A stretch of 64,000 bases of DNA, taken from positions 1 to 64,000 of IMG/VR virus record IMGVR_UViG_3300042907_001596. One strand, 5' to 3'. The position numbers and the translations under genes are program-made. The DNA is from a virus. Positions 3,439 through 62,532 of the stretch are shown here, piece after piece (the first letter of the stretch is position 1; each line of letters begins with the position of its first letter). The notes beneath the pieces are model-generated. The model was not told the origin of the DNA and did no database searches. It saw nothing but the letters and a program-made list of their open reading frames with translations.

Positions 3439-5762
3439 ACAACGAAGGCTTTGAGGTTGGAGCGGATTATGTTGCCGCCAAAGTCAGCTTCGACATCGAC
3501 TCCACCGGCGTCAACAACCTCAAGGAGTTGTCCGACCAGCTAGAGAAGTACCGCACCGAAGCCGAAGCGGCGGCTCGCGGGTCGAAAGACTTCATCGAAT
3601 ACCTCAAGAACATGGCGACGGTGGCTAACCAAGCCGCCGACGCCCAAAAGAACCTCATCGCCCAACTGAACTTGATGACCGGTCTTCAGCAGACCACGAT
3701 GACCAACCAGGGTTCCCAGGTCAGCCGGGGAGTTCCGCAAGGCTACATCGACCCGTTCTCCGGCATGGGCACCGGGTCGGGACGACTCCCCGCCGGGGCC
3801 GACGGGGGCTATTCCCCCACCATTTTGGGTGCCCAAGGCTACCTGGGCGACATGGCCCAGCAAGATCCCCGGCAGTACCTCAACTGGCAGAACCAGCGCG
3901 GGAATCTGCGCGTCGGGGACGTTCCCGCCCAATCCCCCGGCGATCAGGATCTGGAGCGGATCGCCCGCCGCCACGTCGATCGCGAAGAAGTCCAGAACCG
4001 GCGCAACGCCAAAGGCGACCCCTACTCCAGCCTGTCCGACCGGATTTCCGCCATGTCCACCGGGGCTAACCAACTCGTCAACGAGCTAGCCCCCGGCGGC
4101 GGCGTCCAAGGGCCGATGGGGATGCTCCAGCGCGGACTGGGCAGTCTCAGCGGGATGGCGCGGGCTTCCGGCGCGGTCGGTGCGTTAGGTGCCGTCGCTG
4201 GCCCCGCCGCGCTGGGGTTGGGTGCCGCCGCCGCCGGATACGGCCTCTATCAAGGTGTCGGCGGGGCGATCCAAGGCTACCGCGAGATGGGGCAGACTCG
4301 CGGCGGCGGGTTTGAAGAAGGCGTCGGCTACGAGATGGCCATCCGGTCGATGGCGATGAATCCGTTCATCTCTACTGAGCAGGCCCGCCAGATCATCTCG
4401 CAAGGACTCAGTTCCGGCTACTCCGGCAAAGAGTTCGATACCGTCACCCAGTTCATGGCCAACAACCTCAAAGACATGAATATGTCGGTAGCCGACAGCA
4501 TGGCCGTCTTCAAGAAGAACGTCACCGAAGGGGGGATGACCTCCGAAGGTTTGGGTGCCACCATGGCCGGACTGAAAGCCATGGCCGGACTCCCCGGCAC
4601 CACCATGACCCAAGCCGACATTACGTCCGGCTACGCGGGCGCATCCAGCGCAATGATCGACGCCGGAGTGTCCGGCGCGTCGGCGTCCTCCGCCGCCGCC
4701 GCAGGCACCCAGGTGTTCGCCGGGATCGAAAACCTCAAAGAGGTGGGCAGTCAGCTACAGGCATCGGCGTCGAACAGCGACGTAGCGCAAGGGTACATCC
4801 GGCAGTTCGGCGGCTACGCCAGCGAGTTGGCCGGGGTGGATCCCAGCGGGGTGATGGAAGCGTTAGGCGGCGACAAAGGCACCAACGCCATCTTTAACAC
4901 GTTGGTTCACTTCGCCAAGATGTTCTACAGCCAAGCCGGGGGCAAGAAGAGCAGGGCGGTCAAGCCCTTTCAGATGTTTCTCCAGAGAATGTTCCCCGAC
5001 ATAGAGTGGACGAAGAACAAAACCCAACAGCTTATGACCCAACTCATCCAGAACGGCAACCCTTTCCCCGCCGCTCAGCAGGCTAGCCGCCAGGCCACCA
5101 CCGCAGCCTCCCAGATCAAGGAGCGGGGGAGCATGAACCAAAACTTCACCAGGAAGATCGGTGCGCTGGGGACAATAGGTAGCGCCATCGGTGATACGGC
5201 CGAAGGAATTTTTAACATGCTGCAAGGCAAGACCCAGCCGGATGGCCAGGATGCGTTCGACTATGCGGACACCCGCGCCAACATAGATCGGGTCGATGCC
5301 GCCTCCACTGCTAGCCACATCCCCTTGATGGATGCAATCGTGGCCGACCAGGGAGGCTATCGAAACATCCAGGTCGGCTCCGGCGACAAATGGGCCTCCT
5401 ACAACCCCAACGACCGCAAGCAGCTTGAAGCCTTGCGGGACGGCAAAATGAACTGGCGACACAAAAACGACAACGGCAGCGGCCAGTCCCTGGCCAACAC
5501 CGCCAACGGCCAAGGCGTCAGCGACGGCGGTGCGCCGAATATGTTCAACAACGAAAAGGGTGGCCCCGTCAATATCGGCGTCGGCGGCGTCCTCAAGATT
5601 GAGGTGACCGGCGACTCCAGAGGGATTAGGGTGCCCGACCAAGTCAAGCTCACCGCCAACCAGCAGGCAGCACAGCAAGGCTTTGGCGGCGCTACCCTCA
5701 ACGCTCCCCCGCCGGGAGACACCCCCGGCCTTAACGGCTACAACGACTTGAAGTACCGATGA
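3435..5762 (+). CDS. Tail tape measure protein
   Basis: 775 aa from ATG 3435. It sets tail length and may help DNA passage at infection. The N-terminal 80 residues are predicted coiled coil. There is a long Ala/Gly-rich hydrophobic segment around residues 240-285, then an Ala/Ser/Gly-rich helical body. The chaperone pair directly upstream is diagnostic. I prefer ATG 3435, overlapping the previous stop as ATGA, to the in-frame GTG 3420. At 775 residues it is short for a tape measure, so the tail may be short for a myovirus. Confidence 0.82.
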   Translation: MNNEGFEVGADYVAAKVSFDIDSTGVNNLKELSDQLEKYRTEAEAAARGSKDFIEYLKNMATVANQAADAQKNLIAQLNLMTGLQQTTMTNQGSQVSRGVPQGYIDPFSGMGTGSGRLPAGADGGYSPTILGAQGYLGDMAQQDPRQYLNWQNQRGNLRVGDVPAQSPGDQDLERIARRHVDREEVQNRRNAKGDPYSSLSDRISAMSTGANQLVNELAPGGGVQGPMGMLQRGLGSLSGMARASGAVGALGAVAGPAALGLGAAAAGYGLYQGVGGAIQGYREMGQTRGGGFEEGVGYEMAIRSMAMNPFISTEQARQIISQGLSSGYSGKEFDTVTQFMANNLKDMNMSVADSMAVFKKNVTEGGMTSEGLGATMAGLKAMAGLPGTTMTQADITSGYAGASSAMIDAGVSGASASSAAAAGTQVFAGIENLKEVGSQLQASASNSDVAQGYIRQFGGYASELAGVDPSGVMEALGGDKGTNAIFNTLVHFAKMFYSQAGGKKSRAVKPFQMFLQRMFPDIEWTKNKTQQLMTQLIQNGNPFPAAQQASRQATTAASQIKERGSMNQNFTRKIGALGTIGSAIGDTAEGIFNMLQGKTQPDGQDAFDYADTRANIDRVDAASTASHIPLMDAIVADQGGYRNIQVGSGDKWASYNPNDRKQLEALRDGKMNWRHKNDNGSGQSLANTANGQGVSDGGAPNMFNNEKGGPVNIGVGGVLKIEVTGDSRGIRVPDQVKLTANQQAAQQGFGGATLNAPPPGDTPGLNGYNDLKYR

Positions 5763-31631: not shown

Positions 31632-31656
31632 TGATGTGACAGAAGGGAGACACCCC

Positions 31657-31737
31657 ATGAATATCGTTGTCACGTTTTTGGTCGTATTTTTGGTTTCTTT
31701 GTCGGCGTGGCTTCTCGTAGAGGAAAGCCGCCGGTGA
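31657..31737 (+). CDS. Membrane microprotein, 26 aa
   Basis: ATG preceded by AAGGGAGACACCCC, the leader shared by several genes. About 19 consecutive hydrophobic residues (VVTFLVVFLVSLSAWLLV) form one membrane helix followed by a charged EESRR tail. Too small for a known holin. It may modulate the membrane or superinfection. The stop overlaps the next ATG. Confidence 0.6.
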   Translation: MNIVVTFLVVFLVSLSAWLLVEESRR

Positions 31738-34064: not shown

Positions 34065-34086
34065 GCTGTGTCAGAAGGAGACACCC

Positions 34087-50582: not shown

Positions 50583-50637
50583 TATAGTTCTCGTGGGCCG
50601 GTGGGCGTATACGGGTGTCTCCTTCCGTCCACCGGCC
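50583..50637 (+). ncRNA. Promoter and 5' hairpin with anti-Shine-Dalgarno loop
   Basis: TATAGT (50583-50588), then GGCCGGTGG (50596-50604) pairing perfectly with CCACCGGCC (50629-50637). The loop contains GGGTGTCTCCTTCC (50613-50626, within 50611-50628), the reverse complement of the Shine-Dalgarno leader at 59031-59044, and 13-14 nt matches before 34087 and 52035. It may be only the 5' leader of 50661, or a trans-acting antisense RNA. Confidence 0.5.
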
Positions 50638-50660
50638 TACCTTCTTGTGAGGAGGGCCAG

Positions 50661-51128
50661 ATGGCCATCGACATGACCAACGCCAATGAGGGCGTCAGCG
50701 ATCTGTACGACAGTGAGCGCAAAGCCATCATCGGGATCCGTGCCCAGATGATGAGCAAATACTCCTTCAAAGCGATCGACTCCTTCAAGGCCGAAGACGA
50801 CATGAAGAACAAGATCTCCCAAGAGATCCGCCAGCGGTGCGCCGAGATCGGCTTCGTCGTAGAGGTGGAGTGGGAGTGGGAGAAGTTCGATGAGAAGACC
50901 GGCGAACTCGTTGACTTCAGCCCCACCGTGTCCTCCAACCCCAACGACCGTGCGATGTACTGGGTGCCCAACGTCGTGGCAACAGGCCGCACCGACAAGA
51001 CCGTCACGGAGTTCGACCACGACCGGCAAAAGCACGAGATTCGCTCCGGCCTGCTCGACGGCAAGGTGGGCGTGATCAACCCCAACACCGGGCAGATCAC
51101 CGAACCGAAGAAGAAGAACATCTACTGA
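50661..51128 (+). CDS. Hypothetical protein, 155 aa
   Basis: ATG 50661 behind GAGGAGGGCC, downstream of the 50583 promoter/hairpin. Helical first half, then a WEWEK acidic/aromatic segment, Lys-rich end. No family recognised. Expression may be affected by the leader hairpin. Confidence 0.65.
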   Translation: MAIDMTNANEGVSDLYDSERKAIIGIRAQMMSKYSFKAIDSFKAEDDMKNKISQEIRQRCAEIGFVVEVEWEWEKFDEKTGELVDFSPTVSSNPNDRAMYWVPNVVATGRTDKTVTEFDHDRQKHEIRSGLLDGKVGVINPNTGQITEPKKKNIY

Positions 51129-52017: not shown

Positions 52018-52034
52018 GGAAGGAGACACCTTCG

Positions 52035-59029: not shown

Positions 59030-59044
59030 TGGAAGGAGACACCC

Positions 59045-59296
59045 ATGGAGTATCGCGTCGTTGGCCACGAGGTGTGGCTGTTCTACGCCGACGGTGGCGA
59101 GGAACGCTTCGCTGTACTGGAAGGCCCGAACGGTGCTGCGTTGGTAGCACGGCTGCTCAACAAAAACCTGGCTGAGATCGCCGCAGAGAAGTTGTCTGCC
59201 GAACAACTCGCCCTCGACCGCGCCCGCTACGAAGAGATGCGGGCTGAAATCGTGCGGCGCGAACGGCGTGAACGCTATGGGGTGAAGTCGGAATGA
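59045..59296 (+). CDS. Hypothetical protein, 83 aa
   Basis: ATG 59045 with the conserved GGAGACACCC leader, a perfect 14-nt complement to the 50611 loop. Beta-rich start, long charged helix after residue 40. Stop overlaps next ATG. Confidence 0.62.
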   Translation: MEYRVVGHEVWLFYADGGEERFAVLEGPNGAALVARLLNKNLAEIAAEKLSAEQLALDRARYEEMRAEIVRRERRERYGVKSE

Positions 59297-62439: not shown

Positions 62440-62532
62440 TAAACTGAAGGTTCACAGCCCCGGCTAGCTTGCCAGAGCGAAAAGCGGACGTTGCTGCACT
62501 TACTCCGTTCGCACCCGCCTGCCGGGGCTGTG
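62440..62532 (+). promoter_or_regulatory. -10 promoter and branched 5' leader RNA
   Basis: TAAACT (62440-62445). CACAGCCCCGGC (62453-62464) pairs perfectly with GCCGGGGCTGTG (62521-62532), 12 bp. Inside are GCTT/AAGC and a 7-bp GCGGACG/CGTTCGC (one G-T) hairpin. Arms enclose 56 nt. The outer arms resemble a tRNA acceptor stem, but no proper D or T arm forms on either strand. Confidence 0.55.

Follow-up and report, generated by a model that had tools for sequence, protein, structure and literature searches.

A promoter-proximal phage hairpin with a loop complementary to a leader shared by many genes of the same genome: a candidate RNA key to a translation regulon

A hairpin located 6 nt downstream of a −10-like box in a 64,000-base stretch of viral DNA (the window, bases 1–64,000 of a 150,440-bp virus record, G000) carries in its loop the exact complement of a ribosome-site leader shared by genes of the same record. 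Loop and leader were found to change together between genomes (G000, a phage record designated G007, and the Gordonia phages Pupper and Skog). The arrangement points to a putative RNA switch over many phage genes at once, and the reading that we consider probable is a phage antisense RNA that would occlude the ribosome sites of the leader regulon, mostly in trans.

The hairpin and the shared leader in G000

The hairpin locus contains the following features.

50583..50588, + strand: TATAGT, a −10-like box (from the sequence; 6 nt 5′ of the hairpin arm)
50595..50637, + strand: promoter-proximal hairpin, 12–15 pairs, loop 50608–50625 (minimum free energy [MFE] fold and hairpin scan)
50613..50626, + strand: anti-leader GGGTGTCTCCTTCC, complement of the shared leader (no other reverse copy in the record, 150 kb)
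50640..50655, + strand: small hairpin in which the Shine-Dalgarno of the downstream gene itself is partly paired (MFE fold; unpaired probabilities partial when a longer segment was folded)
50661..51128, + strand: downstream gene of the phrog_2779 family, function unknown (family match)

As a preliminary description of the window had reported, TATAGT (50583–50588) is present and followed by a hairpin (50595–50637). The stem, described there as 9 bp, proved to be longer, with 12 pairs in the MFE fold (50596–50607/50626–50637) and 15, including 2 G-U, by hairpin scan. An MFE of −36.7 kcal/mol was obtained for 50596–50665 (z −3.1). The loop, TATACGGGTGTCTCCTTC, pairs in part within itself (GGG/CC) in the fold, and the locus comprises one hairpin only, as compared to the two C-rich stem-loops of 6C/B11-type sRNA. 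Rfam 15 contained no family matching at the hairpin, whether the whole window was searched at the gathering score or seven hairpin loci to an E value of 5, ruling out a known RNA family there. A tRNA relic was likewise rejected: Bxz1-type phages carry tRNA genes at this place, yet ARAGORN detected none in the window. The baseplate protein of G000 exhibits 49% identity to counterparts from Bxz1-like (cluster C) mycobacteriophages. Elsewhere in the window, at 62457–62529, the int-alpA RNA family (RF02996) was matched at 38 bits (gathering score 35.8).

Four copies of the shared leader within the window are as follows.

31642..31654, + strand: shared leader with 2 mismatches, before a 26-aa ORF at 31657
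34073..34085, + strand: shared leader with 1 mismatch, before 34087 (DnaC-like helicase loader)
52018..52030, + strand: shared leader, exact over 13 nt, before 52035 (70-aa protein)
59031..59043, + strand: shared leader, exact over 13 nt, before 59045 (83-aa protein)

The consensus leader, GGAAGGAGACACC, occurs in ∼16 copies before start codons. When the whole 150 kb record was searched with ≤2 mismatches, 21 matches were obtained, 20 forward and one reverse, the single reverse match being the hairpin loop. Sixteen forward sites pass a rule demanding a GGAG core and a nearby start codon, a count that varies with the rule and concerns sites chosen by similarity to the consensus. Independent of such selection, ACAC follows AAGGAG at 11 of 39 sites before ORFs of ≥40 aa. 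The loop contains a sequence exactly complementary to GGAAGGAGACACCC. The 14-nt segment GGGTGTCTCCTTCC (50613–50626) exactly complements 59031–59044 before the gene at 59045, and the remaining matches were also found as previously claimed (52018, 13/14; 34073, 13/14; 31642, a 10-nt run). The earlier argument that a chance match is very unlikely was borne out for exact, recurrent matches, but not for a 14-mer scan allowing ≤3 mismatches (13 matches, shuffle mean 8.66). Ten target proteins were scanned, of which three gave matches with an assigned role (DnaC-like loader, Ku, and replication initiation) and seven either had no match or matched families lacking a known function. Upstream of the leaders at 66430, 67506, 67784, 80858, and 105953 (L122, L124) there is a recurring cassette of promoter plus hairpin, TATAGC-TAGTGGAGGGGG..CCCTCC, such that the corresponding leader mRNAs may have their own hairpin at the start.

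Loop and leader change together between genomes

A P0001 search of viral_contigs returned no close relatives of G000. The baseplate gene and phrog_2779, not the hairpin, served to choose relatives, G007 being selected by its baseplate gene. In G007 a leader, GGAAGGAGACACAC, precedes 16 genes and has the extended form GGAAGGAGACACACAC; 17 forward matches and one reverse match were found, the latter being the loop of a hairpin upstream of the phrog_2779 gene, in the same place as that of G000. The G007 locus has the order TAAGGT, 6 nt, and hairpin (GGCGCCGGG..CCCGGCGCC), with a stem sequence unrelated to the G000 stem. Its loop, GTGTGTGTCTCCTTCC, complements the extended leader of the same genome, including the longer ACACAC.

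Pupper and Skog exhibited the same arrangement in a blind scan (below); their leader is of a third type, and the genes flanking the hairpin differ. In Pupper, the hairpin (92,268 on) is flanked by a minor tail gene and gene 133; TAATCT precedes it by 7 nt, and the phrog_2779 gene of Pupper is not nearby. Hairpins of the Pupper type are also carried by CherryTomatoes, SCentae, and Skog; the Skog stem differs from that of Pupper by two pairs changed on both sides, while the loop core GTGGATTGGTCTCCTT is kept. Independent drift of loop and leader in relatives, raised in the preliminary description as the result that would speak against pairing, was thus not observed, either in G007 or in Pupper and Skog, which possess another leader and loops matched to it. 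Two further features of these phages were seen: a second conserved hairpin with a varying stem, TCTGGTGGAG..CTCCTCCAGA, upstream of the phrog_2779 gene in both (L116 1700–1968, L118 1700–1962), and, at Skog 58558 (L269), a leader, CCCAAGGAGACCAATCCCGTGG, whose complementarity to the loop extends further and includes AATCC.

Blind scan and controls

In the blind scan, hairpins with ≥8 scored pairs and loops of 9–28 nt were collected, and loop 11-mers were sought as complementary leader words before ATG or GTG. The sample consisted of 14 phage records (12 plus 2), of which G005, G002, G003, and G010 are fragments and Anaya was represented by its right half only; G012 (180 kb) was left out. Own-loop 11-mers recurring as own leaders numbered 9 in G000, 10 in G007, 11 in Pupper, and 17 in Skog. 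The value of 13 for Anaya is trivial, the matching loop being an Anaya leader read on its antisense strand, and all other genomes gave ≤4. Reversed or complemented loops gave ≤3, and loops of one genome compared with leaders of an unrelated one gave ≤4, except for a value of 8 arising by chance between Phrappuccino loops and G003 leaders.

Loop shuffles (200 each) reached maxima of 4 for G000, 4 for G007, 10 for Skog, and 2 for G023 (a further genome described below, observed value 5), placing the observed values of these four outside the shuffled range. The Pupper value lies inside its own range, since its loop shuffles reached 11. Bases following AAGGAG before starts were ACAC in 8 of 41 sites in G007 and ACCA in 13 of 32 in Pupper and 19 of 38 in Skog, as compared to 3 of 46, 3 of 20, and 2 of 42 for the commonest tetramer in the controls LinStu, Phrappuccino, and G011. 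These ACAC and ACCA bases lie outside the Shine-Dalgarno core. Leader regulons were also present in G011, G013, and G003, and an antisense hairpin was not found in these records. A promoter-proximal hairpin is present at 71271 on the + strand of G013 (L223); its loop, CACTCCCCCCAGG, is C-rich in a way that recalls the loops of 6C and does not match the G013 leader.

Hairpins from motif scans and their promoter-proximal position

The loop core GTGGATTGGTCTCCTT was found in five stretches of the viral contigs (Skog, Pupper, L301, G023, and G024). L301 has the motif without such a hairpin, while G023 and G024 have long hairpins of other sequence. Matches to AAGGAGACCA numbered 13 forward and 2 reverse in G023 (≤1 mismatch); in G024 the gene strand has 13 and the opposite strand 1, of which only ∼4 look leader-like. 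The wider 14-mer GGATTGGTCTCCTT occurs at at least 121 sites in at least 120 stretches; among the matches listed, 115 have stem scores ≤7 and six have scores ≥11, namely Skog, Pupper, G023, G024, L379 (a low-GC contig, 35% GC), and L405. As G023, G024, and L379 were found via the loop motif, their loops are not independent tests, but their stems and promoters are. The L405 hairpin, a strong one at 3847 on the minus strand, has the loop TTTGGATTGGTCTCCTTTG, with three antisense and no sense AAGGAGACCA copies on that strand. GTGTGTCTCCTTCC occurs at at least 126 sites; among the matches listed, only that of G007 has a stem score exceeding 7. The exact 14-mer was present in 112 stretches of viral_contigs, where only L105 and L106 have stem scores ≥12 (12 and 14); these strong hairpins with anti-Shine-Dalgarno loops are accompanied by no recurring leader. 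In bacterial genomes, none of 11 copies of the shared 17-mer lies in a strong hairpin (stem scores ≤8).

A TANNNT motif is positioned 4–8 nt 5′ of the stem in six of the seven anti-leader hairpins (the exception being G024). Over strong hairpins in general the same spacing was seen in 10 of 700, five of these being anti-leader hairpins, and in a second count (loops of 3–28 nt) in 14 of 937, again including five anti-leader hairpins. A scan for the sigma-70 consensus detected no −35/−10 pair in the window or in Pupper, and a terminator pattern search identified none after the hairpin within the window.

Pairing and proposed mechanism

Within each genome, predicted loop-leader duplexes had mean energies of −22.8 to −28.5 kcal/mol, as compared to −9.9 to −12.1 for a 16S tail. 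Duplexes across families were weaker, except for that of the G007 loop with G000 leaders (−26.5). Nested co-folding of hairpin and leader gave no gain (−0.9, as compared to −0.8 for shuffled leaders), in a model that cannot hold the stem together with loop-target pairing; a full 13–14 bp duplex may not fit in an 18-nt loop.

In the antisense reading, a phage transcript would begin with the hairpin, whose loop would serve as an antisense "key" to the leader over the ribosome sites of the phage's own gene set, which would comprise genes for many small proteins as well as those for the helicase loader, Ku, and a possible replication initiator. Pairing would span the Shine-Dalgarno and the next 4–6 bases, blocking 30S binding, such that one RNA would lower translation of the whole set; a likely purpose would be to turn off early genes and those for DNA metabolism at a particular time. 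From the arrangement of these sequences, we infer the production of such an RNA, its transcript ends, its action in trans, and the direction and timing of its effect.

Alternative explanations

The loop might instead belong to a cis-acting 5′ UTR element that folds on its own downstream ribosome site as a pseudoknot, with the other matches a by-product. In G023 the leader AAGAAGGAGACCAAC of a DNA polymerase gene begins ∼20 nt past the hairpin, and in L379 GACTGGAGACCAAAATG of a replication initiation gene is directly 3′ of it; cis action is possible in these two because the leader of the next gene faces the loop. However, the downstream gene has no leader in G000, G007, Pupper, or Skog, yet the loop fits leaders elsewhere, and downstream genes vary by lineage (phrog_2779, unknown, DNA polymerase, replication initiation), making cis action unlikely as the general explanation. 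Leaders could also soak up the RNA, or the loop could mimic the 16S 3′ tail, such that ribosomes or the downstream gene would be affected and the leader set would not be repressed. Consistent with mimicry, five loops (G007, Pupper, Skog, G023, and G024) share GGATT before the antisense segment, like the 16S end, which is GGATCACCTCCTT. A 16S mimic would have no need, however, for the observed tracking of leader bases outside the Shine-Dalgarno core (ACACC, ACACAC, ACCA), and titration or mimicry seems quite improbable to us.

Binding of a protein to the motif as DNA, the reverse copy being an operator or an inverted relic of the leader, would likewise cause loop and leader to track each other within a genome, and a DNA-binding role has been proposed for the ESAS of cluster K phages (in the excerpted report, PMC3203893). 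Nevertheless, the reverse copy is enclosed in every lineage by an inverted repeat of changing sequence, the motif holds a fixed position over the ribosome site, and all 11 bacterial copies of the 17-mer have low stem scores. The inverted relic, which the preliminary description had offered as the plain alternative, was specifically disfavored because inspection of sequence contexts revealed no extended inverted similarity beyond 14 nt around any leader; it was rejected, no similarity being visible beyond the motif. A DNA-level site is thus regarded as highly improbable. Hairpins such as those of L105 and L106 demonstrate that an ordinary stabilizing 5′ hairpin can have a Shine-Dalgarno-like complement in its loop in the absence of a recurring leader. 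Coincidence of this kind is nonetheless exceedingly hard to reconcile with four genomes in the blind scan and with the cross-genome and loop-shuffle controls.

Comparison with known systems

In cluster K phages, the SAS is a short ribosome-site leader found before many genes in one orientation and conserved beyond the Shine-Dalgarno core, and the ESAS is a 17-bp inverted repeat that holds a promoter upstream of the SAS (PMC3203893, in excerpt). K1 phages have a single reverse SAS copy reported as unassociated with a gene start, which the excerpted text does not tie to a hairpin (PMC3203893). The G000 leaders resemble SAS in lying near start codons, almost all in one orientation; however, GGAAGGAGACACC does not match the 13-nt SAS consensus GGGATAGGAGCCC at ≤2 mismatches. 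Several of the G000 leaders follow TATAGC-TAGTGGAGGGGG..CCCTCC-like hairpins. All 12 cluster K phages analyzed had 15–21 forward SAS matches (≤2 mismatches), and in six a reverse SAS part, CTCCTATCC, lies in a hairpin loop. This loop match was absent from Amohnition, Unicorn, Marshawn, Keshu, SirPhilip, and KiSi. Stem covariation among the six phages with the match was modest, with two pairs changed on both sides (as high in 133 of 500 shuffles) and a covariation score reached by 22 of 500 shuffles. These observations are a lead, not a proof, that cluster K SAS may have a partner RNA; to our knowledge, no partner has been known for SAS-type conserved leaders since their description in 2011.

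It is possible, if at somewhat below an even chance, that large actinophages and some other tailed phages have an RNA-addressed translation regulon, with the leader as address and the promoter-proximal hairpin as key, the two co-evolving per genome. Universality is opposed by G011, G013, and G003 and by the split within cluster K (6 of 12). No paper on such a phage RNA was found in the open-licence literature searched, which does not show it to be unpublished.

The 6C/B11 sRNA of mycobacteria has loops that face G-rich regions near the ribosome sites of several mRNAs, which it represses (PMC10470900, in part). That RNA is host-encoded with two C-rich loops (PMC10470900), whereas in G000 one phage RNA would face a phage-wide leader; the 6C/B11 targets presumably share no dedicated leader. 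P22 sar and lambda OOP are phage-encoded antisense RNAs directed at phage mRNAs, one target being described for each in the excerpted account (PMC12197685), in contrast to the many distant mRNAs that a single RNA would face here. The T4 RegA protein competes with ribosomes for the initiation regions of ∼30 mRNAs and, in the excerpt of its description, has no strict sequence motif (PMC3014915), while the regulator proposed here would be an RNA with an exact sequence address. If correct, this arrangement would be the RNA equivalent of RegA and would account for SAS-type conservation beyond the Shine-Dalgarno core, with the matching hairpin providing a testable partner and a mechanism by which one small RNA could switch a whole phage gene set. 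Phage development would also gain an RNA layer spanning the genome, and a portable repressor/leader pair would become available for actinobacteria.
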